Virus record (IMG/VR): IMGVR_UViG_3300037041_002705
Span: 62,001 to 126,000 of that record
Direction: 5' to 3' (one strand)
Source: a virus
DNA length: 64,000 nucleotides
Each line of letters opens with the position of its first letter. Within the stretch, counting starts at the first letter, position 1. The translations under genes were made by a program, and so were the position numbers. Below, piece after piece: positions 4,929 to 37,693 of this stretch. The notes below the pieces were generated by a model that made no database searches, was not told the origin of the DNA, and worked only from the letters and a program-made list of their open reading frames with translations.

Positions 4929-5132
4929 ATGGTAAAGAAGTTTGAACAATGGATAAATGAGTCCCTTCATTCTGGAGTCCCTGTTGACTTCTTCAAGAAG
5001 ATACACCAGTATTCAAAGAAGAGGCCACTGGACATACAGGCGGACATAACAGATGATCTTGTGAACAATGATCTCGAAGACGTTTCACATCACTTCTATG
5101 ATCTTGGAACGAATCCACCAGAGGAGGACTAA
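4929..5132 (+). CDS. Small protein with capsid-targeting-like N-terminus
   Basis: 67 residues, family not recognised. The first 12 residues, MVKKFEQWINES, match the layout of the T4 capsid targeting sequence (ten residues, basic-aromatic, ending hydrophobic-x-Glu), which the gp21 protease removes from internal head proteins. Cleavage would fall between Glu11 and Ser12. The same I-N-E-S arrangement is found at residues 10-13 of the 15083 gene product. The remainder is charged and mostly helical, with an acidic end (PPEED). An encapsidated or scaffold-associated protein is inferred. A late-type motif lies 22 bases upstream and the next gene starts four bases after the stop. Confidence 0.6.
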   Translation: MVKKFEQWINESLHSGVPVDFFKKIHQYSKKRPLDIQADITDDLVNNDLEDVSHHFYDLGTNPPEED

Positions 5133-8627: not shown

Positions 8628-9136
8628 GAAAAATAGTGCTGTGCGGGGCTTCATGTTCAGGAAAAACCACAATAAAACAGAACCTTGTTGATAAAGGTTT
8701 TAAGCCTGGTATTTCTTACACAACCCGTGAAATAAGAGAGGGTGAAATAGATGGGGTTGATTATAGATTTGTATCAAAGGAAACGTTTTCTGACCTCATA
8801 AGTAAAGGTGCATTCTTTGAATACGATGATACATTCGATGATTACTACGGAACCTCAAATGATGATTTTGAGAACTGTGATGTTTTCATACTAACGCCAA
8901 AGGCCATAGAAAAATTGAAGACAACAGGGCTCATATCAAAATGCGTAATCGTTTATCTTATGGCACCGATACATGTAAGAATAAAAAGGGCGACAGAGCG
9001 CGGTGATTCCATTGGAAAGATGCTACATAGGATATCAAATGATTCTGCTGCATTTGCTGGGTTCACAGATTATGACCTTGCGATTGAGACAAAAGAAGGA
9101 AACATGGAAGAAGTCATAAACATAATACATCAATAA
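8624..9136 (+). CDS. Guanylate kinase-like nucleotide kinase
   Basis: 170 residues, the usual size for guanylate kinase or slightly short. P-loop GASCSGKTT is at residues 8-16. The GMP-binding block follows as SYTTREIREGEIDGVDYRFV, and the LID-type arginines as HVRIKRATERGD. These are the family hallmarks, so phosphorylation of (d)GMP with ATP is expected. In T4 a different-fold kinase (gp1) phosphorylates dGMP, dTMP and hydroxymethyl-dCMP; a similar broadened role here, alongside the hydroxymethylase-like enzyme at 17234, is speculation. It overlaps the ATPase gene by four bases, and the next gene starts at its last base. Confidence 0.8.
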   Translation: MRKIVLCGASCSGKTTIKQNLVDKGFKPGISYTTREIREGEIDGVDYRFVSKETFSDLISKGAFFEYDDTFDDYYGTSNDDFENCDVFILTPKAIEKLKTTGLISKCVIVYLMAPIHVRIKRATERGDSIGKMLHRISNDSAAFAGFTDYDLAIETKEGNMEEVINIIHQ

Positions 9137-9783
9137 TGAAAAACCCACAGCTTCCAACAGTTGCAGTAATAACTCCAACATACAAGAGGGCAACGAAGAT
9201 AATTGATAGGTGTGTTAGGTCCGTTCAGGGACAGACATACAATGGTCCTGTTATGCACATAATATGTTCTGATGGCCCAGAAGAGGAACATGTAAGAGAG
9301 TACGTTGATTCATTGAATGACCCAGGAGTAATTTATGTGTCAACCGGTGAAAACACGAACTCCTATGGAGGAGGCGTTAGGGAGTATGTTCTTACAAATT
9401 ATATAGAGCCCTTTGAGTATTCCAACATAGAGTACCTTGTTCACATGGATGATGACAACGTCCTTTTTCCACACTTCATAGAAGATAATGTGAATGCCCT
9501 TGAGGCAAACCCGGACAAGGCATTCTCGATATGTAAGATACTCCATCTGGGACCTCTTCCGCAACACCTTGGCCCTGCACCACAAGTCATAAATGGTGTG
9601 CCACCAGTGTTCCAGAACATAGATACACTCCAAGTTGTGGTTCGACGTGAAGCAATGCTACAATGCAGATGGAACACATTCTCTGGCGAACAGGGGTACT
9701 ATAACGATGGATACACATATGATCGTTTGGGAAAGATGTTTGAATGGGTTGAAATACCAGAGCTTTTAGCAGTTCACATCTAG
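9136..9783 (+). CDS. GT-A glycosyltransferase (family 2-like)
   Basis: 215 residues. The N-terminus PTVAVITPTYKRATKI and the metal/nucleotide-sugar site YLVHMDDDNVLF identify a GT-A fold, close to family 2. It is shorter than typical family 2 enzymes and seems to be a minimal catalytic domain with no membrane anchor, so a soluble enzyme acting on protein or DNA in the cytoplasm is likely. Donor and acceptor cannot be read from sequence. It follows the guanylate kinase-like gene with a one-base overlap and ends just before the lysozyme promoter motif. Confidence 0.8.
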   Translation: MKNPQLPTVAVITPTYKRATKIIDRCVRSVQGQTYNGPVMHIICSDGPEEEHVREYVDSLNDPGVIYVSTGENTNSYGGGVREYVLTNYIEPFEYSNIEYLVHMDDDNVLFPHFIEDNVNALEANPDKAFSICKILHLGPLPQHLGPAPQVINGVPPVFQNIDTLQVVVRREAMLQCRWNTFSGEQGYYNDGYTYDRLGKMFEWVEIPELLAVHI

Positions 9784-10689: not shown

Positions 10690-12561
10690 ATGGATCAACA
10701 AGTTCTTCTAATACTTGAGAATTCTACTTCCATTCTTGAATCAAAGAGTGAAGGAAACGGAGATGTTGTTCTCGAGGGAATATTTGCCCAGTTCGGTGTT
10801 GTTAACAACAACGACAGGATCTATGAAGAGAATGAGTACCTTCCACATCTTGACTACTTGAATGATAAGATAAAGTCAAAGAGACTGATGGGAGAGCTCG
10901 ACCACCCAGATAAGTTTGATGTGTCTCTTCAGAAGGTTTCGCACATAATCGAAAATCTCGAATACGATAAGTCATCTAGGTGCCTCAAGGGAAAGGTAAG
11001 ACTGCTGAACACAGATGCTGGAATAACAGCAAGAAGGCTTGTTGAAGCCGGTGTTCCTCTCTCAATTTCTTCTAGGGCTGCAGGCGTTGTTGGTCCAGAC
11101 AAGAAGGTAAAGCTCAAGAAGATATTTACATATGACCTTGTTGCTGATCCTGGCTTTGAGAATGCACAACTCTCACTGGTGAATGAATCATTTGGATTCT
11201 CAGCCAAGTCAAACCTTCACATCTATGATGTTTCAGAGATGTATGATCCAAACTCGCTATTCCAAGACATTGAAAACAGAAAAGAACAAAAAAATAACAT
11301 GAATATGGGCTCACATCTAAAAGATGAAACGGTAAAGGTCTCTGAGCTCAACGAGTACTCAAAGCTTGTTAAGAATGAGATCGAACTGCTTGAGAAGAAG
11401 CTCTCTGGACTTATCAAAAAGGTCAATAAGCTTTCTTCAAATGAGGACACAGTTGCAAAGGTTATTGAATACACAAACTATGTAGCTGAAAAGCTCAATG
11501 GCACAATAAACTACTGCAACTATCTTTCAGAGAATGTTGACACAAACATCACAGCTGTCAACAAGCTGAAGAGCAAGGTTTCTGATACGATAGATTATTC
11601 AAACTACATTGCAGAAAGGCTCAACCTTTCTGATAGCTATCAGAACTATCTTGCAGAGAACCTGGACAAGAACATATCATTCTCAAACTATATTTCTGAG
11701 AAGCTCAATGAGAACATCAACTACAGCAACTACCTTGCAGAGAATCTGAACAGGGCAATTGAATTTGGTGATTACCTTGCAGAGAACCTGAATGACTCAA
11801 TCGGTTACTCAGAGTATCTTGGAGAGAACCTTGATCTTTCGATCAAGCACAATGATTACCTTGCAGAAGCAGTCAACAAGACTATCGGTTACACCGAGTA
11901 TGTTGCAGAGCAGACTGACAAGGCGATTCAGTATTCAGACTATGTGGTTGAATCAATCAACGAAAAGGAAAAAGTAATGAAGACAAAGAGGAAAGAAAAG
12001 AAGGCAGCAATGGTTGCTGGTGAAAATCTTTCCGAGAAGGTGAATCATTTGATATCAGAAGCCAAAAAAGAAAAGGTACAGGTATTGAATGAGTCTGCAA
12101 AGTTCCCATTCCTACGTCATCTTTCTCCAGAAAAGAGGAAGCAATTCATCGAACTGCCGGTGACTGAAAAAGAGATAGTCAACGAAGCCATGAGCAAGTC
12201 GATATTCTTCACAGAGAAGGACGTTGTAAACATTTGGGAATCCGCTCTCGCAGCCGCAACGGAGAGGAAGAATCTTCCAAAGTGGATCACAGAGATGCCA
12301 ACGGAGTACGCTCCTGTTTGGGAATCACTGTCACAGGAGAGCCGTCAACGTATAGCGTCTCAGGCCCAATACATAAAGCTTGATACGCCTTATCAGATCA
12401 GGAACTTCTGGGCCACAAGGCCAGATGTAGTCAACTTCAACGGCAACGTCACAGAGACGCTCAATGAGTCGGTCAATCCGTACACAACGATCGAAACTGT
12501 GAAGAACAGCAATTCCTCATACATCGAAAGTGTAAGGAAGAGCTTGATTGGTAAATTGTAA
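10690..12561 (+). CDS. 21: Prohead protease (gp21-like) fused to scaffold-like region
   Basis: 623 residues. Residues ~25-165 are a T4 gp21-type prohead protease (assemblin-like fold): GELDHP with catalytic His72, LSISSRAAG with Ser127 or Ser128, and a downstream SHIIENLEY. Residues 261-428 are twelve 14-residue coiled-coil repeats of the type YSNYLAENLNRAIE. The last ~195 residues are charged and helical, as in scaffold proteins such as T4 gp22. In T4 protease and scaffold are separate genes, so this is a fusion. Hydrophobic-N-E-S/A motifs at residues 163-167, 466-469, 497-500 and 591-594 look like self-cleavage sites; the first would release the protease domain. The next gene is the major capsid protein, 26 bases downstream. 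Confidence 0.85.
   Translation: MDQQVLLILENSTSILESKSEGNGDVVLEGIFAQFGVVNNNDRIYEENEYLPHLDYLNDKIKSKRLMGELDHPDKFDVSLQKVSHIIENLEYDKSSRCLKGKVRLLNTDAGITARRLVEAGVPLSISSRAAGVVGPDKKVKLKKIFTYDLVADPGFENAQLSLVNESFGFSAKSNLHIYDVSEMYDPNSLFQDIENRKEQKNNMNMGSHLKDETVKVSELNEYSKLVKNEIELLEKKLSGLIKKVNKLSSNEDTVAKVIEYTNYVAEKLNGTINYCNYLSENVDTNITAVNKLKSKVSDTIDYSNYIAERLNLSDSYQNYLAENLDKNISFSNYISEKLNENINYSNYLAENLNRAIEFGDYLAENLNDSIGYSEYLGENLDLSIKHNDYLAEAVNKTIGYTEYVAEQTDKAIQYSDYVVESINEKEKVMKTKRKEKKAAMVAGENLSEKVNHLISEAKKEKVQVLNESAKFPFLRHLSPEKRKQFIELPVTEKEIVNEAMSKSIFFTEKDVVNIWESALAAATERKNLPKWITEMPTEYAPVWESLSQESRQRIASQAQYIKLDTPYQIRNFWATRPDVVNFNGNVTETLNESVNPYTTIETVKNSNSSYIESVRKSLIGKL
11470..11973 (+). repeat. Twelve 42-bp degenerate coding repeats in scaffold region
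   Basis: Twelve consecutive 14-residue units occupy residues 261-428 of the protease-scaffold fusion, with consensus Y-S-N-Y-L-A-E-N-L-N-x-x-I-x. Each unit is two heptads with hydrophobic residues in register, so one long parallel coiled coil or helical rod is predicted. The third unit is the most divergent. DNA copies are degenerate, which points to an old array under selection. Confidence 0.85.
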
Positions 12562-20712: not shown

Positions 20713-20738
20713 AGGCGCATATGCGCCTTTTCTTTTTT
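20711..20738 (+). terminator. Palindromic terminator AAAGGCGCATATGCGCCTTT
   Basis: A perfect 20-bp inverted repeat with a GC-rich stem, followed by TCTTTTTT. It starts inside the TAA of the 20353 gene and ends two bases before the ATATATA motif of the next operon. It is symmetrical, but only the plus strand has the T tract. Confidence 0.8.
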
Positions 20739-20739
20739 G

Positions 20740-20746
20740 ATATATA
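20740..20746 (+). promoter_or_regulatory. Late-promoter-like ATATATA motif
   Basis: ATATATACGGC then ATG at 20751, the same block as at 3-16. It is the first signal of the neck-baseplate operon and directly follows the terminator. Confidence 0.55.
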
Positions 20747-20750
20747 CGGC

Positions 20751-21482
20751 ATGGTAAAAGATCAACTCATAGAGCTTGTGCAGGATGAAATAACAGCTTC
20801 CGGTGCAATTTCAACATCAATTGGCATAAAGGAGATTGACAGGATCATAAACGATGCAGCAAGGTGGTTCTTCCAGAACTACCAGTATGCAGTCGAGACC
20901 GTCTACTACATCCTTCCTAGGTCAACGTTTGATTCCGTTTGGAAGTCAAACAGAAGGCAGATCGTCCTTCCTGACTGCGTTGTGAGCGTCCTTGATGTCA
21001 AGGAGATGAAGTCTGCAAACTTCTTTGGTATGGTCGACCAGGACATAACAGAGAACCGCCTGATTGCGGCAGAGCTTTACCTAGCCCCGTTTGGTAGCGA
21101 TGATCTCGTGTACAGAACGGCCCAGTATGCATACTATGACCTTACACGTGCATACTTCCTAGAACGAATACAATACGAATACAACCAGAACACACACCAC
21201 CTAACGCTGCTTGGACGAAATCCAAAGTATGATGTTTCCTGTAGGGTCATGACAAAGATACCAGAGCAGAGCCTGTATGACGATCCCCTCTTCATTGATT
21301 ATGTAAAGGGAAAGGCGCTTGTATCGATGGCACGCGTGTACTCTTTCATAAACTTCAACCTTCCAGGAGGGGCACAGATAAACGCATCTATATTTGAGAG
21401 CCAAGGCCAGGCAATGGTGGACAAGGTTCTAGAGAAGATAGACTCTGATAACGTACCAGACTACTTCGTACAGATACACTAA
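20751..21482 (+). CDS. Putative neck/head-tail connector protein
   Basis: 243 residues from ATG 20751. An upstream in-frame ATG at 20721 lies inside the terminator stem and is rejected. The protein is soluble and aromatic-rich. Near the C-terminus the block KGKALVSMARVYSFINF followed by LPGGAQINASIFESQGQ resembles the end of T4 gp14-type neck and connector proteins (LPGG, then Asn and a helix). The function would be to seal the head after packaging and join it to the tail. Its place just before the gp25-like gene supports a neck or baseplate role. The family assignment rests on one short region and is uncertain. Confidence 0.5.
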   Translation: MVKDQLIELVQDEITASGAISTSIGIKEIDRIINDAARWFFQNYQYAVETVYYILPRSTFDSVWKSNRRQIVLPDCVVSVLDVKEMKSANFFGMVDQDITENRLIAAELYLAPFGSDDLVYRTAQYAYYDLTRAYFLERIQYEYNQNTHHLTLLGRNPKYDVSCRVMTKIPEQSLYDDPLFIDYVKGKALVSMARVYSFINFNLPGGAQINASIFESQGQAMVDKVLEKIDSDNVPDYFVQIH

Positions 21483-21488
21483 TAACAT

Positions 21489-21851
21489 ATGCTTAGGGAC
21501 ATCTATCTCAGAAATGAAGACGATCCAAAGTATGTGGCAAACAAGATGGAGGAGAATGATAACATCCAAGATCTTGTTGAGCAGCTAAAGATGCTCTTTG
21601 CCACATCACCAGGTGAAGTCATCGCTTATCCATACTACGGTCTGAACCTCGAGGACATGCTGTTTGAGTTTGATTTTGATCAGGACCAAATACGTCAAGA
21701 GATAGACCGCCAGTACTTTGAGTACATAAAGCCATACTTCCCAGGAATAAACGTTGAAATTGATGTTTATGTTTCTGAGGGCGAGGTATCAAGGACAATG
21801 ATCATTGATGTGTACATCAATCAAATTCTAAACTTTCAGGTGATAACATGA
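21489..21851 (+). CDS. 25: Baseplate wedge protein, gp25-like
   Basis: 120 residues, typical length for the GPW/gp25 family. The hallmark stretch reads LVEQLKMLFATSPGEVIAYP, then YYGLNLEDMLFEFD, as in T4 gp25, which forms part of the baseplate wedge and resembles a lysozyme fold without activity. It overlaps the next gene by four bases, so both are probably translationally coupled. It gives the strongest positional anchor for the baseplate module. Confidence 0.85.
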   Translation: MLRDIYLRNEDDPKYVANKMEENDNIQDLVEQLKMLFATSPGEVIAYPYYGLNLEDMLFEFDFDQDQIRQEIDRQYFEYIKPYFPGINVEIDVYVSEGEVSRTMIIDVYINQILNFQVIT

Positions 21852-27108: not shown

Positions 27109-28344
27109 GTGCCAATCACACCAGTCGTTGCAATATTTTCAAAGGACCCTTCAAAGATTCAAGACATAAAGCTCAAGTCTAGCAGTTACATAGATTGGGA
27201 GTCACATGATTTTGAGTGTCACTTCTTTTCAGACACAGATGATCTGAACAGTGTGATAACCAAGTTGAACCCTGCCGTTTTCATAACAACAGGAAACAGT
27301 TCAGACTATGGTCAATTGTTCAATGCACCATACAGCGTCAGAAGAAAATGGATACATGTCGATGAATACGATGCAAATCCTGTAATAGGCGACAATGCAT
27401 ACACGTGCTTCATAGACTCATCATTGAATGTCGAAAAGAACCTTGCAGATCCTCTTGTTAGCTGCTTCACGCCAACATACAGGACTGGAAACAGGATATA
27501 TCGCGTCTTTGCATCACTTCAGGCACAGAGGCATAAGAACTGGGAATGGGTGATGTATGATGATTCAAACGATGGAGGAAAAACGTATGACATGCTTCTT
27601 GAGCTTGCCCAGCAGGATCACAGGATAAAGGTATTCAGAGGCCCAAAGCCTAGCGGCATGATTGGTGAGGTAAAGAGGTATGCAGCAGGACTCTGCACAG
27701 GAAAGTATCTTGTTGAGCTTGATCATGATGACGTCCTCACATATTGGGCACTTGACCACGTGGTCTCTGGTTTCAATGAGTATCCAGAAGGAAAGTTTCT
27801 GTACACAGATGCATCAGAGGTCTTTGAGACCGGTGGATGCGTGAACTACGGATCGTTCTGGGGCTTTGGATATGGAAGGCATTATGAAGCACACTACAAT
27901 GGTGCAGTATACACGTGTGAAACTGCTCCTATAAACCCAAAGACTATCAGGCACATAGTTGCCGCTCCTAACCACATCAGGGCATGGGAGTCTGATTTCT
28001 ACTTCAGCATAGGCGGACACAACCCACGTCTCCACATAGCTGATGACTACGAACTCGTCGTCCGGAGCTTCCTGAAGACCAGGTTCATACACGTCCCAAG
28101 GCTCTGCTACCTGCAGTACATGAACAGCGGTGGTAACAACACACAGGAGCCAAGGCGCCCTGAGATACAACGTGCAGTAAGATACATATCATCATACTAC
28201 GACAAGATGATACACGACAGGTTCGTCGAGCTTGGGTTCGATGACTTTGTCTGGGATGAAGAGCAACAGAGGTCAAACATGGCAATTCCAAACCCAGAGG
28301 AGACCCCAGATGCTGCGCTTATCACAAAATTTCAGGATCAATGA
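27109..28344 (+). CDS. Family 2 glycosyltransferase with N-terminal extension
   Basis: 411 residues from a GTG. A ~115-residue N-terminal domain of unknown type (PAVFITTGNSSDYGQLFNAP) precedes a GT2 catalytic domain: LVSCFTPTYRTGNRIYRVF, then GEVKRYAAGLCTGKYLVELD with DHDD as the metal site. A HIADDYELVVRSF block follows, as in GT2 acceptor sites. No membrane segment is present. It lies inside the baseplate operon and overlaps the next gene by four bases, so glycosylation of a virion protein is a reasonable inference, unproven. Confidence 0.8.
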   Translation: MPITPVVAIFSKDPSKIQDIKLKSSSYIDWESHDFECHFFSDTDDLNSVITKLNPAVFITTGNSSDYGQLFNAPYSVRRKWIHVDEYDANPVIGDNAYTCFIDSSLNVEKNLADPLVSCFTPTYRTGNRIYRVFASLQAQRHKNWEWVMYDDSNDGGKTYDMLLELAQQDHRIKVFRGPKPSGMIGEVKRYAAGLCTGKYLVELDHDDVLTYWALDHVVSGFNEYPEGKFLYTDASEVFETGGCVNYGSFWGFGYGRHYEAHYNGAVYTCETAPINPKTIRHIVAAPNHIRAWESDFYFSIGGHNPRLHIADDYELVVRSFLKTRFIHVPRLCYLQYMNSGGNNTQEPRRPEIQRAVRYISSYYDKMIHDRFVELGFDDFVWDEEQQRSNMAIPNPEETPDAALITKFQDQ

Positions 28345-30005
28345 GCAGTGGCCTTTTCAGTGTAGGACGTTTGGACAGGAAGTTCATCTATGAATCTTCC
28401 GGAAATCCCAATGAAAGGAAACTAAAGTACAACGATCCATCGTTTGTGACCTTTAGGATACTCTTTGACTTTGATCCCATAGTATCAAATGATGAGGTCA
28501 TGCAAGGCCTTCTCCTTAATGAATCCAGGGATGAAAGCGCTGTTAGCTATCTCAGAAGGATGGGAGAACAGGAAAGAGCCCAGGCATTGAAGGAGTTTAC
28601 ATGGCTCCTTGAAAGAATAACAAATGACTTCCCTTGGTTCTTCAAAACCATATCAGGTATTGATGGCCTCTGGAAATGGGGGTTCATGAATGCTGATGGA
28701 ACTTCCACACAATCAGCACCGGTTGATCTAAGTGTCAGTTGTTACGAGACCGTTGATCTTAGGATGACTGCACTTGCTGACCTTTACAGAAAGGCAACAA
28801 GGGATAGAAGGTACTTCAGAGACCTTTTGACTCTTGATAAGAAGAGGTTCAACATGACGGTTCTTGTCGGAGAGGCAAGAAACCTGAGGACCTTTGTTGA
28901 ATCAAACACAACAGAATGGCTGAACCACGTTTCAACTGTTGCATTTAGGTGCCTTGATTGTGAGTTTGATTTCTCTGGAATTGCTCCTGCCTCATTGGAC
29001 GCATCTGAAGCACCGTCTCAGCTTACACCATCGTTTGGCATAAAGGTCCATAGGGTCCAGGAAACAAATTCATACCTTCTCTTGGATTACATGTTAGGTG
29101 AGATAAAGAGAGACCTCGTCATAAAGCAGGGAGGAAGTGGAGCTGAAGTAAACCAGGACACTGACATAACGAACTACAGGTCTCTGCTTGCACCTTTTGT
29201 GAGGTCGTATGAAGGAAACTACAACCAGGTCCTGTTGGACTTAGGAAGGAATGTATCGCAGAACTTCCTAAACCAGCTTACATTCACAACAGGAGACAGG
29301 CGTTCGTCTCTTACATACCCAGACCTTGATAGGCTAAATAAGCAACAGTTGGATGGCATAACAAAGGAGGCAGAGCTTTCTGCTCTTGCATCATCACTTT
29401 TAAGAACATCCATACAGACAGCAAACATCACAGAAAATATATCGCTCATAGATTTTGGTCGTCCGACTGTTAACACAGACATACCAGAATCGGTAGATCT
29501 TTCTCCACCAAATGTGGCAGAGGATGGAACAAAAATAGGAGATGAAGTGGCAAACCAAATAGATTTTAGAAGACCAAAGGTAGAGACAGAACTATCAGAT
29601 TTCTCACTGACAAAACCAGGTGTCGCAACAGAATTGGATCAAAATGTTGGACTTGTAAAACCTACTGTTCAGAAAGAACTATCTGATGCAGTGAATCTTA
29701 CAAGCCCTACAGTAAACACCGATCAGGGAAGTGGAATAGATCTTAGGGCGCCAGTGGTTCAAAGCGATCTGGACAACAATGTTGGATTCATACAACCTAC
29801 CGTTACAACTTCATTGGACCAAAATGTCCAGTTTGAAAGGCCTACTGTTGAAACCACGATAGATCAAACCCTTTCGTTTGGAAGGCCGACTGTTGCAACA
29901 AGCGTTGACAACAACATAGCATTTGTAAAACCGACAGTGCTTGGCGACATGCCAGACAGCATAGCATTTGAAAAACCAAAGGTAGAAGATGACTTTGGAT
30001 CTTAA
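28341..30005 (+). CDS. Baseplate/tail structural protein with C-terminal 15-residue repeats
   Basis: 554 residues. The first ~370 form a globular domain of unknown family with RITNDFPWFFKTI and a mixed alpha/beta continuation. From residue 372 the chain is about twelve 15-residue repeats of the form F-x-x-P-T-V-x-T-x-x-D-x-N-x-x, for example FGRPTVATSVDNNIA. The array ends at the stop codon and may form a rod or binding strip along the tail. Its end overlaps the spike gene by 17 bases in another frame. A baseplate adaptor or tail-tip role is inferred from position only. Confidence 0.6.
   Translation: MSSGLFSVGRLDRKFIYESSGNPNERKLKYNDPSFVTFRILFDFDPIVSNDEVMQGLLLNESRDESAVSYLRRMGEQERAQALKEFTWLLERITNDFPWFFKTISGIDGLWKWGFMNADGTSTQSAPVDLSVSCYETVDLRMTALADLYRKATRDRRYFRDLLTLDKKRFNMTVLVGEARNLRTFVESNTTEWLNHVSTVAFRCLDCEFDFSGIAPASLDASEAPSQLTPSFGIKVHRVQETNSYLLLDYMLGEIKRDLVIKQGGSGAEVNQDTDITNYRSLLAPFVRSYEGNYNQVLLDLGRNVSQNFLNQLTFTTGDRRSSLTYPDLDRLNKQQLDGITKEAELSALASSLLRTSIQTANITENISLIDFGRPTVNTDIPESVDLSPPNVAEDGTKIGDEVANQIDFRRPKVETELSDFSLTKPGVATELDQNVGLVKPTVQKELSDAVNLTSPTVNTDQGSGIDLRAPVVQSDLDNNVGFIQPTVTTSLDQNVQFERPTVETTIDQTLSFGRPTVATSVDNNIAFVKPTVLGDMPDSIAFEKPKVEDDFGS
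29454..30002 (+). repeat. About twelve degenerate 45-bp coding repeats
   Basis: Consecutive 15-residue units from residue 372 to the end of the 28341 protein, with consensus hydrophobic-x-x-P-T-V and a later D-x-N. Proline and valine positions are the most conserved. The second unit is lengthened and the last is shortened. Degenerate DNA indicates an old, selected array. Confidence 0.8.
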
Positions 30006-30717
30006 GAAGGACTACATTGGGTTTGTCGTGGACTCAAATGATCCTGAGCGCCTTGGCAGGTGTAAAATCAGGGTCCTTGGAGTGTATGATAACATAACCG
30101 ATGCAGATCTTCCATGGGCGTTCTACCAGGGAAGCAATGTCTTTGCTGGAGGTGAGAGCCTAGGAGGGGGAAACATATCAATCCCGAAGCTTGGTACTGC
30201 AGTAAAGGTTGTCTTCATGAACGAAGACATACACAACCCGATATGGTGTTCAATCGTGCACCTCAATGACAAACTCAGAAGAGAGTTGGCAGAGAGCTAT
30301 GCAGATTCACACGTCATAGTATACGATGAGGACCAAGACCTTAAGGTGTGGTTCACACCATCGAATGGCATGCAGGTCTACTACAAGGACAGCAGCATAT
30401 CAATAAATCCTGATCAGTCAATCCTCATAGACCATAAGGAGAGCCAATCAAACATTGAATTGAAGGCAGGTCAGATAACGGTGAACGCAAGGAGCAAGGT
30501 TGAAGTCAACTCTCCAAACGTCCATGTCAACGGTGGCCTTACCGAGCTAGGCACATCTCCACAGTTCTCTGTTCTGTTAGGCGAGGTCCTTCTGGCTGCA
30601 TTGGACACGCTTGCAGCAACAGTGGATCTAAAATGGCCACCATCTCCTGGCGTTGCAACCGCAACCATGCAACAGGCAAGATCTGCTCTTTCAAAGACAG
30701 TCAAAACAACTGCATGA
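29989..30717 (+). CDS. 5: Baseplate spike protein, gp5/gpV-like
   Basis: 242 residues. The N-terminal domain has the OB-fold signature of VgrG/gpV/gp5 proteins: YIGFVVDSNDPERLGRCKIR, LPWA, then IPKLGTAVKVVFMNED. The rest has short repetitive beta-strand elements (IELKAGQITVNARSKVEVNS) of a spike helix. No lysozyme domain is included, unlike T4 gp5, so the tail-tip lysozyme, if any, is elsewhere. The start lies inside the end of the previous gene. The next gene begins with a GTG eleven bases after the stop. Confidence 0.8.
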   Translation: MTLDLKKDYIGFVVDSNDPERLGRCKIRVLGVYDNITDADLPWAFYQGSNVFAGGESLGGGNISIPKLGTAVKVVFMNEDIHNPIWCSIVHLNDKLRRELAESYADSHVIVYDEDQDLKVWFTPSNGMQVYYKDSSISINPDQSILIDHKESQSNIELKAGQITVNARSKVEVNSPNVHVNGGLTELGTSPQFSVLLGEVLLAALDTLAATVDLKWPPSPGVATATMQQARSALSKTVKTTA

Positions 30718-33494: not shown

Positions 33495-34631
33495 ATGATT
33501 TTTAATTCAAGAGTCTTTTCGATCTACGAGAATTTTCAACATCCTGTCGATGATGCGACATATTTTGACATGGTGTCAAAAAATTCTAGCGAAGATGTAC
33601 ATAAGACCGTTTCTGCGGGCCAAGTTTTCCAAGTAAACACCGCAACGCTTCTTTCTGATAACATGCTCATCGTCTCTGGGCCTTTCTCTCCTTCGATAAT
33701 GGTGAAGATGAGCAAGGAAAAGGATTTTCTAAAGAGCGTTTCAATGACCGCAGAGGAGCTTATAGGGTCAATATCGGAAAACAATTCATATCACGTCAAG
33801 ATCGTATCAACAGAGTCTGGTCTTAGAGGAAGCTTCTATGAGGCACAGAAGGACGTCCTTCGTAAGGAGTTCTTTGAACAGCTGAGAAATCCTTCAAAGG
33901 TCTATGATGCAAAGATCATGGAGAAGAACAGAGGTGGATACTTTGTCAACGTCTATGGCGTCGATGCATTCCTACCTGGATCGCTTGCAAGTGCAAACAA
34001 GATCATAAACTTTGAGGCTTTCCTAGGAAAGACTGTAAAGGTTATGTTGGATTCATACGTAAACGAAAGCGATACGTTCATAGTATCAAACAAGCGATAC
34101 ATTGAGCACATCATGCCAACGTTGATTGACAACTTTGATATGTCGGTTATGTATGAGGGAACTGTCACAGGTACAATACAGTCTGGAATATTCATTGAGT
34201 TCAATGAGATAATGACAGGCCTTCTTTCGCAGAATGACATGGATCAACAGACACTGAATCTCTTTAAGACCGGTCAGGTTCGACCAGGCGACAAGATCAA
34301 CATATGGGTCCGTGACATAATCCCGCCAAAGAACTTCATCCTTACACAGAACTCAACAGAGACGATGATATCAAGGCTTGCTGATCTTGCAAACATCATT
34401 GAGTCTGAAAACAGTGATGTTGCAATGAATGCTAAGGTTCTTTCGATAAAGGGATCTTATGTTACCCTTGAGTTCAATGGGGTCATGACAACGATATCAA
34501 TGAAGGGACAGTTTGGACAGAACAACAGGCTTAAGATCGGTGGAATGATAAAGATAAGGATAAGCTCTGTTGAGCCAAAGCGAAACAGGGTTTTGGCAAC
34601 CATAATAAACGAAAATGAACCAGAGAACTAA
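33495..34631 (+). CDS. Multi-S1-domain RNA-binding protein
   Basis: 378 residues. Three S1 (OB-fold) domains are readable: ~137-205 (YDAKIMEKNRGGYFVNVYG, then VDAFLPGS), ~219-290 (YEGTVTGTIQSGIFIEF) and ~310-373 (NAKVLSIKGSYVTLEFNG). The first ~130 residues look like a degenerate further module. The GGxxVxxxGxxxFLPGS pattern is the bacterial ribosomal S1 signature. S1 helps ribosomes start on mRNAs with weak Shine-Dalgarno sequences, and many leaders here are A-rich or very short, so a role in late phage translation is inferred. It is preceded by a late-type motif and overlaps the amidoligase-like gene by 17 bases. An RNA-decay or structural role is possible. Confidence 0.75.
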   Translation: MIFNSRVFSIYENFQHPVDDATYFDMVSKNSSEDVHKTVSAGQVFQVNTATLLSDNMLIVSGPFSPSIMVKMSKEKDFLKSVSMTAEELIGSISENNSYHVKIVSTESGLRGSFYEAQKDVLRKEFFEQLRNPSKVYDAKIMEKNRGGYFVNVYGVDAFLPGSLASANKIINFEAFLGKTVKVMLDSYVNESDTFIVSNKRYIEHIMPTLIDNFDMSVMYEGTVTGTIQSGIFIEFNEIMTGLLSQNDMDQQTLNLFKTGQVRPGDKINIWVRDIIPPKNFILTQNSTETMISRLADLANIIESENSDVAMNAKVLSIKGSYVTLEFNGVMTTISMKGQFGQNNRLKIGGMIKIRISSVEPKRNRVLATIINENEPEN

Positions 34632-35958
34632 AGAATTTCTGAACAAGAATGAGATCTTGAACTCGGCCCTCATAGGGTTCGAGTTCGAGTTCTTTTCTAA
34701 TAAGAAGTTCCCAACAGTGGCGGCAGAAATGTCTAGCCTTCTTGGAAAGAAGGTTGTGCCAGCATACAAGATGAATGCAAAGGGAGAAAAGATCCCTGGT
34801 GCCCACACTGATGTTCAAGTAGACTACAACAACTACAAACTGGAGCATGATTTTTCTGGAGGAAGGGCCATGATGGAACTCGTCACTGGCCCTACTCCTT
34901 TTTTTGAAGCGAAGATAATACTTGCAAAGGTCCTTAATTGGATAAAGCAAAACGGCAAAACCAATGATCGTTCCGGCATACACATAAACATAAGCTTCAA
35001 CAGGTTTACCACACCAAACAACAACATTGATATATCAGCGTTGGATGTTCTTAAGCTTGTCCTGACGTTTGACGAAGACTACATCTATGAGAGGTTTCCT
35101 GACAGAAGGAACAATGTTTTTGCGCGATCGGTAGACTATGTGCTCCCAAACAATCTGTTTAGCTTCAATGACAACATCAAGAACATAAACAGATCAAGCT
35201 TTACAGTACCACATGAAAAGTACTTTGGTTTCAACTTTTCAAAGCTTGCAAACGGCTACCTTGAGATGAGGTATCTTGGAGGTAAGGACTATGAGGACAA
35301 GATAGTTGAGATACTTGAGTGTATGGACTATGCAACCCTCACAATCTATGACTGTCTTGCAAATGGAAACTATACCGAAGAAAACCTTTCAAGGCTCAGA
35401 AACAGGCTAGCAGAGCACAAGAAGTTCATAAATGGGATGGTGAACCACAAGGTCTTCTCCGTTTTTTACAAGGACATTGAGGTATATGTTGACCTAAAGA
35501 ACACAGATCAGCTCCTGTCAACATACTGGGAAGAGTACAGAAACGTGCTTTTTGATCTGATATATAGGAATGGGTTGAAGTCTGGGCATATCAACTTGGA
35601 CATAGATCTGCATAGGTATCAGGTAAAGGATGGAGTTTTCAAGAAGCCATGGGGGCTTGCATTCTATGATCTGGTGGACTGTAAGCTAAAGAATTCAATA
35701 GTTGATCAATGCACCCTCATAGGATGCAAGATCTCGTCTTCTCAGCTATACTTCTGTGAGATCATTCTTGATAATACTATCAATGATTCCAAGATAAAAT
35801 CCAGCTACATAAAGACCCTTGACAATAGATTCTCAAACTGCTACATAGACAATCTTCCCCATAATGTAAAGGGTGATATTGTGAATTGCATAATAAGGAG
35901 CGGTGGGATATCTGATTTGACTACAATTGATGATAAGACGACTGTTGTTGGTGTGTAA
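34615..35958 (+). CDS. Amidoligase-like enzyme with beta-helix-like C-terminus
   Basis: 447 residues. Putative amidoligases (glutamine-synthetase-like COOH-NH2 ligases) carry an acidic GxExE opening, a D-S/G-E block and a GxHxHxS block. Here these read IGFEFEFF (Glu23, Glu25), HDFSGGRAMMELVTGP (Asp79, Glu88) and SGIHINISF (His123). The middle is helical. From ~350 a repetitive stretch of short strands with cysteines (CTLIGCKISSSQLYFCEIIL) looks like a right-handed beta-helix. Family members form amide bonds on proteins or small peptides and often sit beside peptide or ATP-grasp genes; the substrate here is not known. The ATG is inside the S1 gene, so the two are coupled. Modification of a virion protein is speculation. 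Confidence 0.65.
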   Translation: MNQRTKEFLNKNEILNSALIGFEFEFFSNKKFPTVAAEMSSLLGKKVVPAYKMNAKGEKIPGAHTDVQVDYNNYKLEHDFSGGRAMMELVTGPTPFFEAKIILAKVLNWIKQNGKTNDRSGIHINISFNRFTTPNNNIDISALDVLKLVLTFDEDYIYERFPDRRNNVFARSVDYVLPNNLFSFNDNIKNINRSSFTVPHEKYFGFNFSKLANGYLEMRYLGGKDYEDKIVEILECMDYATLTIYDCLANGNYTEENLSRLRNRLAEHKKFINGMVNHKVFSVFYKDIEVYVDLKNTDQLLSTYWEEYRNVLFDLIYRNGLKSGHINLDIDLHRYQVKDGVFKKPWGLAFYDLVDCKLKNSIVDQCTLIGCKISSSQLYFCEIILDNTINDSKIKSSYIKTLDNRFSNCYIDNLPHNVKGDIVNCIIRSGGISDLTTIDDKTTVVGV

Positions 35959-35971
35959 AAATTAAAGAAGA

Positions 35972-37693
35972 TTGAACGAACTCCTAAATAAGATAAGCGT
36001 ACTGTTCTCTCAGATATACAGTGACGCCAGAACGTACTTCTCAAACGCATACTCGCAATCAGGGTCTGTGTTTGGTCCTTCTTCTGCGTATGGACAGCTT
36101 CTAACAGCAATATCTGCATTCACACAAAGGGTCTTCTTTTACATCGAAGACAGCATAACAGAGCTTAACATATACACAGCAACAAGGAGAAGCTCGGTCT
36201 ATGGCCTTGCACGTCTTGCTGGCCACAATCCAACAAGGGCAATTGGTGCAACCGGCGACATAAACCTGACGTTTACAGGCGAAACAATACAGGCAGCAAA
36301 CAATCAGGTCGTCATACCAAACTTTACAACGATACAGTGCATAAACAATGGTCTGTATTACACCATACTTGCCCCAAGAGAAGAGATAAGGATGAACATA
36401 GGACAGAGGAATTCTGTTAAGGTGAAGATGGTTCAAGGAAAGATTGAGTCCCAGACGTTTACAGGAACAGGAGAGTCTCTTCAGACGTTCAATGCATTTG
36501 TCAAGAACAACAATAACATAGACAACTTTTATGTGAATGTCTACGTCAATGGAGAAGAATACACAATATATGATAGCTTCTATGACATGCCACTCGGTGC
36601 ATCAGGATGCCTCGTAAGGACCTCTCTGAACAACGGAATAGATGTCATATTTGGAAACACACAGTATGGAAAGATCCCAGACTCTGGTGCAACAATTGTG
36701 GTTCAGTATCTTGTGACAGATGGAGCATATGGAAACATCATAGATTTCACAGAAAAGGCACAGTTCAAGTTTGTTGATCAGGTCTTTGATGCAGTTGGAA
36801 ACACAATCGATGTCAACAATGGGATAAACATATCCCTTGCTTCAAGGGTCATCCTTGGGTCCTTTCCTGAGCCAATTGAACTGACGAAGATAATAGCACC
36901 AAAGGTCTCCAGATCTCTCGTTCTTGCTAGACCTGAGAATTACGTATATTTTCTACAAAGGCTTAACTACTTCTCGATAGTTGACGCTTTTGATACGTTT
37001 GGAGATGATTATCTTGAAGATGATAATGTCGTATACGTCTATCTGGTTCCAGAGATACAGAAGAGGCTGAAGACAAATGAGAACTACTTCACGGTCAATG
37101 TAGAGAAGTTTACACTTTTTGATGATGAGGTGAAGAAGATCAGGGATTACGTTCAAGAATCCGGGTCAATGCTTGTGACGTCTGAGATGCGTATACTTCG
37201 CCCAGTCATAAAGAGGTATGTCCTCAACATAAGCCTGGTGGTGTTTGACAATGTTTCCATTGACCTTCTAAAGTCAGAGGTTGTGGCAAAGTTGAATGAA
37301 TACCTGCTGTCATTCGTCAGAAGGGATAGGATCCCACAGAGTGATATTGTTGCAATACTTGAGGGCATCAATGGAATTGATTCTGTGAACGTCAGATTCA
37401 TGTGTGAAGAAAACGAAAAGATAAAGAGCGAGTGGCTTCAAAAGCTCACAACTGCTCCAAACACTCCTGAGCCTGCTGATGTCGGCCTTGATAGCCAAGG
37501 AGACATAATAATAGGAAAGGGAGAGCTTCCTCTTGTCAGGGGAGGATGGTATGACCGGTATGGAAACTACTTCAACGATACAGTTGACTTTGCAGTTCCA
37601 TGCTCTGTGAACATCGAGATAAAGGAAGTACTAACGCAGTCAATCTATAACAAGCTTGCGATAGACAAGATAAAGAAATTAAAATCCAGTTAA
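35972..37693 (+). CDS. 6: Baseplate wedge protein, gp6/gpJ-like
   Basis: 573 residues from a TTG with AAGAAG just before it. The N-terminal helical part AISAFTQRVFFYIEDSITEL followed by LARLAGHNPTRAIGATGDIN matches the gp6/J family opening. The later YVQESGSMLVTSEMRILRPV and the C-terminal LNISLVVFDNVSIDLLKSEV strand-helix are the typical end. T4 gp6 dimers form the iris of the baseplate. The protein has the expected size and lies after the spike and S1 region. A late-type motif separates it from the next fibre gene. Confidence 0.8.
   Translation: MNELLNKISVLFSQIYSDARTYFSNAYSQSGSVFGPSSAYGQLLTAISAFTQRVFFYIEDSITELNIYTATRRSSVYGLARLAGHNPTRAIGATGDINLTFTGETIQAANNQVVIPNFTTIQCINNGLYYTILAPREEIRMNIGQRNSVKVKMVQGKIESQTFTGTGESLQTFNAFVKNNNNIDNFYVNVYVNGEEYTIYDSFYDMPLGASGCLVRTSLNNGIDVIFGNTQYGKIPDSGATIVVQYLVTDGAYGNIIDFTEKAQFKFVDQVFDAVGNTIDVNNGINISLASRVILGSFPEPIELTKIIAPKVSRSLVLARPENYVYFLQRLNYFSIVDAFDTFGDDYLEDDNVVYVYLVPEIQKRLKTNENYFTVNVEKFTLFDDEVKKIRDYVQESGSMLVTSEMRILRPVIKRYVLNISLVVFDNVSIDLLKSEVVAKLNEYLLSFVRRDRIPQSDIVAILEGINGIDSVNVRFMCEENEKIKSEWLQKLTTAPNTPEPADVGLDSQGDIIIGKGELPLVRGGWYDRYGNYFNDTVDFAVPCSVNIEIKEVLTQSIYNKLAIDKIKKLKSS

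Follow-up and report, generated by a model that had tools for sequence, protein, structure and literature searches.

The elements that meet in the locus described here are already known singly: glutamine synthetase (GS)-like phage amidoligases, pentapeptide-repeat proteins and the ribosomal protein S1 (rpS1) of huge phages. The pentapeptide helices of MfpA, Qnr and AlbG are binding surfaces. Members of the GS superfamily carry a GhExE motif on core strand 1, acidic residues on strands 2 and 3, an [HD]x[NH] motif on strand 4 and an Ex[RK]x2D motif on strand 6, together with two active-site arginines, one on strand 5 and one in the loop before it (PMC2588565). That an enzyme with the GS fold can modify proteins is known from the Pup ligase PafA (PMC2588565). 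For other phage amidoligases, the cell wall or small molecules have been put forward as targets (PMC10580990). Huge phages that encode rpS1 rarely have Shine-Dalgarno sites (PMC7162821).

The protein studied here is the 447 aa product of ORF 34615–35958 (+ strand, ATG start) of the window, the 64,000 nt stretch of DNA analysed, which belongs to a virus record of 133,673 bases. It has in common with the Amidoligase_2 (PF12224)/phrog_2443 phage amidoligases the GS fold, the order and type of the motifs and the fact of being phage-borne. Unlike them, it falls below detection by the profile, ends in a pentapeptide-repeat helix, is encoded in a baseplate operon beside a bS1 gene and has a clade of pseudoenzymes among its relatives. 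With PafA and other GS-superfamily ligases it shares the motifs of strands 1, 2, 3 and 4 and the ExR of strand 6 (PMC2588565); PafA also tolerates a Gln at the strand-4 His position (PMC2588565), as does the group of relatives termed class II below. However, there is no Pfam Pup-ligase match, Gly takes the place of the strand-6 Asp, and no Pup-like gene was seen beside the amidoligase of the window, the operon having no intergenic room at that point. The tail resembles AlbG, MfpA and QnrB1 in being a right-handed quadrilateral β-helix with strands spaced at about five residues, but, unlike them, it is a short domain attached to the C-terminus of an enzyme, and it scores below the Pfam curated cut-offs. 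The gene upstream is a bS1 homologue of the kind reported as rpS1 in huge phages; a search of the text of PMC7162821 found no mention of an amidoligase, and the fixed bS1–amidoligase pairing is described here. A full-length structural match, UniProt A0A6J5PQ40 from an uncultured Caudovirales phage, is unannotated and has no proposed function. No description of the enzyme–pentapeptide fusion, of its constant position in a baseplate operon next to bS1 or of the pseudoenzyme clade turned up in searches of open-licence papers.

A predicted GS-fold ligase with intact catalytic motifs

The protein carries the motifs GFEFE (residues 21–25), HDFSGG...MMELVTGP (78–93), GIHINIS (121–127) and LEMR (216–219). 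The initial annotation, whose list did not include LEMR, had taken the order of the first three as that of GS-like COOH-NH2 ligases, a reading now borne out by motifs, strands and fold. The predicted catalytic domain covers approximately residues 18–318 (positions 34666–35568, + strand), as judged from DSSP assignment of an AlphaFold2 (AF2) model, conservation and the motif list of PMC2588565. The amidoligase-profile search proposed at that time succeeded for the relatives but not for the protein itself: Pfam Amidoligase_2 gave no match to the window protein at E ≤ 1, while 32 of 50 relatives matched at E ≤ 0.1 (best E = 6.1e-8). Relatives about 35–40% identical to it over the full length scored 33.0, 27.2, 27.1 and 22.9 bits, the curated gathering cut-off of PF12224 being 22 bits. 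Single-sequence hhalign against E. coli GshA returned nothing, and the sole phmmer match of the window protein in the PDB, CdiB, was a chance match. Weak Pfam matches to PRANC, DEK_C, IDO and Hemocyanin_N, each in a single family member, were likewise dismissed as chance. The link to the GS family is drawn from the Pfam matches of the relatives, the fold search and the motifs.

The AF2 model, built from 50 aligned relatives (the window protein and IMG/VR sequences only), reached a pLDDT of 91.5 and a pTM of 0.85. Foldseek against the PDB returned glutamine synthetase first (E = 2.5e-6), with bifunctional glutathione synthetase (2.2e-5), AlbG, matching the tail (4.9e-4), and gamma-GCS (5.7e-4) lower down; the TM-scores were low (0.25–0.3) because both domains were compared at once. 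Among viral models the best match was A0A6J5PQ40, over the full length (TM 0.86–0.88), followed by phage entries named ‘amidoligase enzyme’. The model showed core strands 1–4 and 6, and helices following both strand 3 and strand 6; strand 5 was not clearly resolved. Most of the superfamily motifs listed in PMC2588565 sit on the expected strands. Strand 1 (18–28) carries G21-F-E23-F-E25, whose G, E and E are invariant in the 99 distinct sequences of classes I and II (defined below). Strand 2 (73–78) runs into a turn with K75-x-E77-x-D79-x-SGG, in which D79 lies just past the strand and E77 is conserved in 96% of these sequences; strand 3 (86–90) carries E88, and strand 4 (121–128) carries H123-x-N125 in class I. 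On strand 6 (216–222), E217-x-R219 is invariant in classes I and II, and the superfamily Asp position is occupied by G222. R164 and K202, invariant in classes I and II and mostly lost in class III, are candidates for the two active-site arginine positions. At nine positions (E23, E25, D79, S81, G83, E88, K202, E217 and R219) conservation is 100% in the 99 homologues; since column identity averages 48% in the 50-member family alignment, this conservation is far beyond chance. Neither result that would have spoken against the initial annotation, a fold unrelated to glutamine synthetase or E, D and H residues out of place for a metal–ATP site, was obtained. These findings confirm the GS-like fold and motif order of the product of ORF 34615–35958, a predicted Amidoligase_2-like carboxylate–amine ligase.

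A pentapeptide-repeat-like tail

The C-terminal domain begins near residue 321 and comprises about 125 residues (approximately 321–447; positions 35575–35955, + strand). It was first reported as a Cys-containing β-helix-like tail of about 95 residues; the helix stands, as a right-handed quadrilateral one of pentapeptide-repeat type, while the length has been revised. In the AF2 model, short strands occur every five residues or so, and Foldseek matched the fold to AlbG, QnrB1 and MfpA. In addition, the tail of the family profile matched MfpA in hmmsearch (E = 7.8e-4), and Pentapeptide_4 was found in 12 of 50 relatives (best E = 5.9e-5), the pentapeptide Pfam scores reaching 15 bits against a curated cut-off of 38. 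The cysteines lie within short repeated units (CKLKN SIVDQ CTLIG CKISS SQLYF CEIIL), and we read them as putatively occupying the i-2 position of the pentapeptide repeat, where the small residue faces inwards, and not as a special Cys cluster.

Three classes of homologues, one of them a pseudoenzyme lineage

A set of 118 distinct homologues (117 from the collected loci plus the window protein) fell into three classes. Class I (n = 57, including the window protein) has H123-x-N125; class II (n = 42) has H123Q and mostly N125S; class III (n = 19) is one clade that has lost most catalytic residues. Nine motif residues are 96–100% conserved across classes I and II. In class III, E23, K75, E77, D79, S81, G83, H123 and R219 are kept in none of the 19 sequences; E88 survives in a single sequence, R164 in two and K202 in three. 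The residue at 219 is Asn in every case. Class III retains every one of the framework residues G21, F24, F26, E154, G205, G222, Y226, N327, D329 and Q336. Of the columns that hold superfamily motifs, together with those of the two arginine-finger candidates, 8/9 were lost, versus 14/36 of the other positions conserved in classes I and II (Fisher P = 0.009, a value that is only indicative since the columns were picked after the alignment was viewed). In a tree computed without the diagnostic columns, classes II and III each formed one clade (SH-aLRT 99 and 100), so a single change suffices for each.

Both domains persist in class III. Domain scores were 182–220 bits for the GS domain and 92–109 bits for the tail, and a model made from the class III alignment alone still matched GS (E = 1.4e-4) and AlbG (E = 7.7e-4). 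Four sequence pairs gave dN/dS values of 0.04–0.17, which indicates purifying selection. The bS1 gene lay upstream in all 18 class III loci with room for it, a count conditioned on a bS1-seeded search. Class III (loci L124, L136, L157 and 16 others) is a pseudoenzyme lineage in which the active site has been lost while both domains and the gene order have been kept under purifying selection. Since the protein is kept in place without its catalytic residues, catalysis cannot be its sole role.

Distribution and gene order

A single scan with a seven-member amidoligase alignment as the query identified at least 541 IMG/VR stretches that encode relatives. The gene was also present in six huge-phage records of a phage collection, including a 735-kb genome that is the largest phage genome in the reference set. 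A search for a bacterial origin gave only two MAG contigs, both probably of phage. The window itself contains T4-type structural genes, coding for a Gp23 major capsid protein and a Peptidase_S77 prohead protease, which identify its source as a T4-like large phage.

The usual order, fixed across relatives, is bS1, amidoligase, head–tail adaptor, gp25 and gp6. Among the best 80 loci per scan, close relatives included, bS1 was directly upstream of the amidoligase, often overlapping it, in 70 of the 72 amidoligase-seeded loci with enough flanking sequence; downstream, the adaptor was found in 58/61, gp25 in 56/61 and gp6 in 58/61. In the window, the adaptor (phrog_211; 20721–21482, + strand) and the gp25-like baseplate wedge gene (21489–21851, + strand) have moved about 13 kb upstream, so that the gp6-like wedge gene (35972–37693, + strand; phrog_219, E = 1.5e-27) directly follows the amidoligase, starting 13 bp after it. 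The same operon contains a gene for a gp5-like baseplate hub OB-fold protein (29989–30717, + strand; PF04717, E = 1.8e-6; phrog_430, E = 1.6e-16). The baseplate setting with a gp6-like gene next had been proposed from the sequence of the window, with co-occurrence in related phages as a check, and it now has the support of these counts.

The gene upstream (33495–34631, + strand) overlaps the amidoligase gene by 17 bp. The coupling to an ‘S1 protein’ described earlier therefore holds, and the identity of that protein can be made more precise: it is a phage homologue of ribosomal protein bS1, colinear with residues 19–346 of E. coli bS1 (domains D1–D4) and without D5–D6 (profile match to 30S ribosomal protein S1, E = 2.5e-61; hhalign probability 99.8). 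It is probably a translation factor. In most such large phages it sits inside the structural late operon, which is unexpected for a translation factor. A bS1-seeded search found the amidoligase downstream in 72 of 77 loci, with bS1 directly upstream in 66/67. The five loci without it are accounted for by a contig end (one), a copy elsewhere in the genome (one) and short contigs (three); the apparent absence at locus L118 was thus discarded, as its genome (G010) carries the amidoligase elsewhere. In the window, 10 of the 42 main ORFs are preceded by a Shine-Dalgarno-like motif (3.7 expected by shuffling), and many upstream regions are A-rich leaders; this suggests that initiation in this phage may be mostly independent of Shine-Dalgarno sites.

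Other features of the window and of related loci were observed by inspection. The Peptidase_S77 domain covers only residues 25–134 of the 623-aa product of 10690–12561, which suggests a putative protease–scaffold fusion. Two ORFs in the structural region (9136–9783 and 27109–28344) resemble family-2 glycosyltransferases on visual inspection; one of them belongs directly to the baseplate operon. Genes 125 and 124 of Salicola phage SCTP-2 (L008, 8993–12753) look like tandem amidoligase-like paralogues, with products starting MKFNQIKTNQINEG and MKFEHIKNNRTIQEG; these starts are reminiscent of T4 capsid-targeting N-termini. An N-terminal MK..F..FINE-like signature, which resembles the T4 capsid-targeting sequence, occurs in several genes near the megaphage amidoligases (L004–L007) and in window ORF 4929–5132 (MVKKFEQWINESLHSG).

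A possible role in tail assembly

The explanation that best fits these observations as a whole, to which we give a probability of about 0.45, is that the protein is a ligase acting on a late baseplate or tail protein and, beyond catalysis, serves in binding or scaffolding. Its expression would be late, as part of the baseplate/tail operon that these T4-like, very large phages carry; the class I enzyme would use ATP to activate a carboxylate and couple it to an amine on a late protein expressed alongside it, probably one from the baseplate or tail, during tail assembly. The pentapeptide-repeat β-helix may provide a docking or assembly surface, and the additional non-catalytic role would have outlived catalysis in class III. 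The invariance of the motifs in the 99 class I and II sequences argues for a predicted active, ATP-dependent ligase in the phage of the window, and the retention of class III argues for the second function.

Modification of a peptide or of the cell envelope, for instance in superinfection exclusion, with the place in the baseplate operon reflecting expression timing only, is unlikely. It would be in keeping with the amidoligase–glutamine amidotransferase pairs of phiEco32, proposed to modify the cell wall according to the passage of PMC10580990 that cites them, but a scan of neighbouring ORFs showed no glutamine amidotransferase, the link to the baseplate genes is highly stable, and the tail, with its pentapeptide repeats, presents a protein-like interface.

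The adjacency of bS1 raises another alternative, which we regard as improbable: by analogy with RimK acting on S6, the amidoligase could be a GS-fold modifier of phage bS1 or of host ribosomal proteins that retunes the translation of late mRNAs. Besides the pairing found in both seeded searches, all 14 amidoligase-positive large genomes tested carry bS1, and the few Shine-Dalgarno-like sites in the window match the report on huge phages (PMC7162821). The adjacency is, however, no stronger than that of gp6. Further, in four phages of 634–735 kb, which have many tail genes, bS1 and the amidoligase lie 50–440 kb apart, yet the amidoligase is within about 0.5–10 kb of tail or baseplate genes in all four. 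Genome G010 shows the opposite arrangement, the amidoligase standing alone while bS1 remains with gp25–gp6. None of 27 bS1 positions invariant in class I and II genomes was lost in the class III genomes, in which the amidoligase active site is gone. A corresponding search for substrate signatures found no class-specific residue loss in gp25. In gp6 it gave one weak column, in the adaptor four columns that are not diagnostic, and in w38933 several lost columns, the last from only five class III sequences. The separation in the megaphages and the intact bS1 positions both speak for action on the tail rather than on bS1, neither strongly. The separation concerns four megaphages only, with G010 pointing the other way, and class III represents a single loss event that cannot alone reveal a substrate.

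The protein could instead serve in every class as a structural or chaperone part of the baseplate and nothing more, with the class I and II residues binding ATP or metal and no ligation taking place. This would suit the retention of class III without an active site, the fixed place among wedge and adaptor genes and the binding surfaces formed by the helices of MfpA, Qnr and AlbG, but we hold it to be quite unlikely, as the full invariance on strands 1, 3 and 6 in 99 sequences is hard to explain without phosphotransfer chemistry.

A ligase acting on a late tail protein could also have a wider bearing. It is possible, if doubtful, that tail assembly in these phages generally includes a ligase that covalently modifies or crosslinks a baseplate or tail protein, with the pentapeptide arm as a scaffold and one lineage turned into a structural pseudoenzyme. 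To our knowledge, no enzyme-catalysed covalent maturation step has been described in contractile-tail assembly; if the amidoligase does act on the virion, it would bring an enzyme-catalysed covalent modification into that process. As the site occurs naturally in three states, intact, His-to-Gln and dead, the classes would offer a ready means of telling the catalytic role from the structural one. The tie between bS1 and a structural operon bears on how late genes are translated with few Shine-Dalgarno sites, and the amidoligase gene, conserved and hitherto without annotation, belongs to the baseplate operon across a very large group of huge phages.
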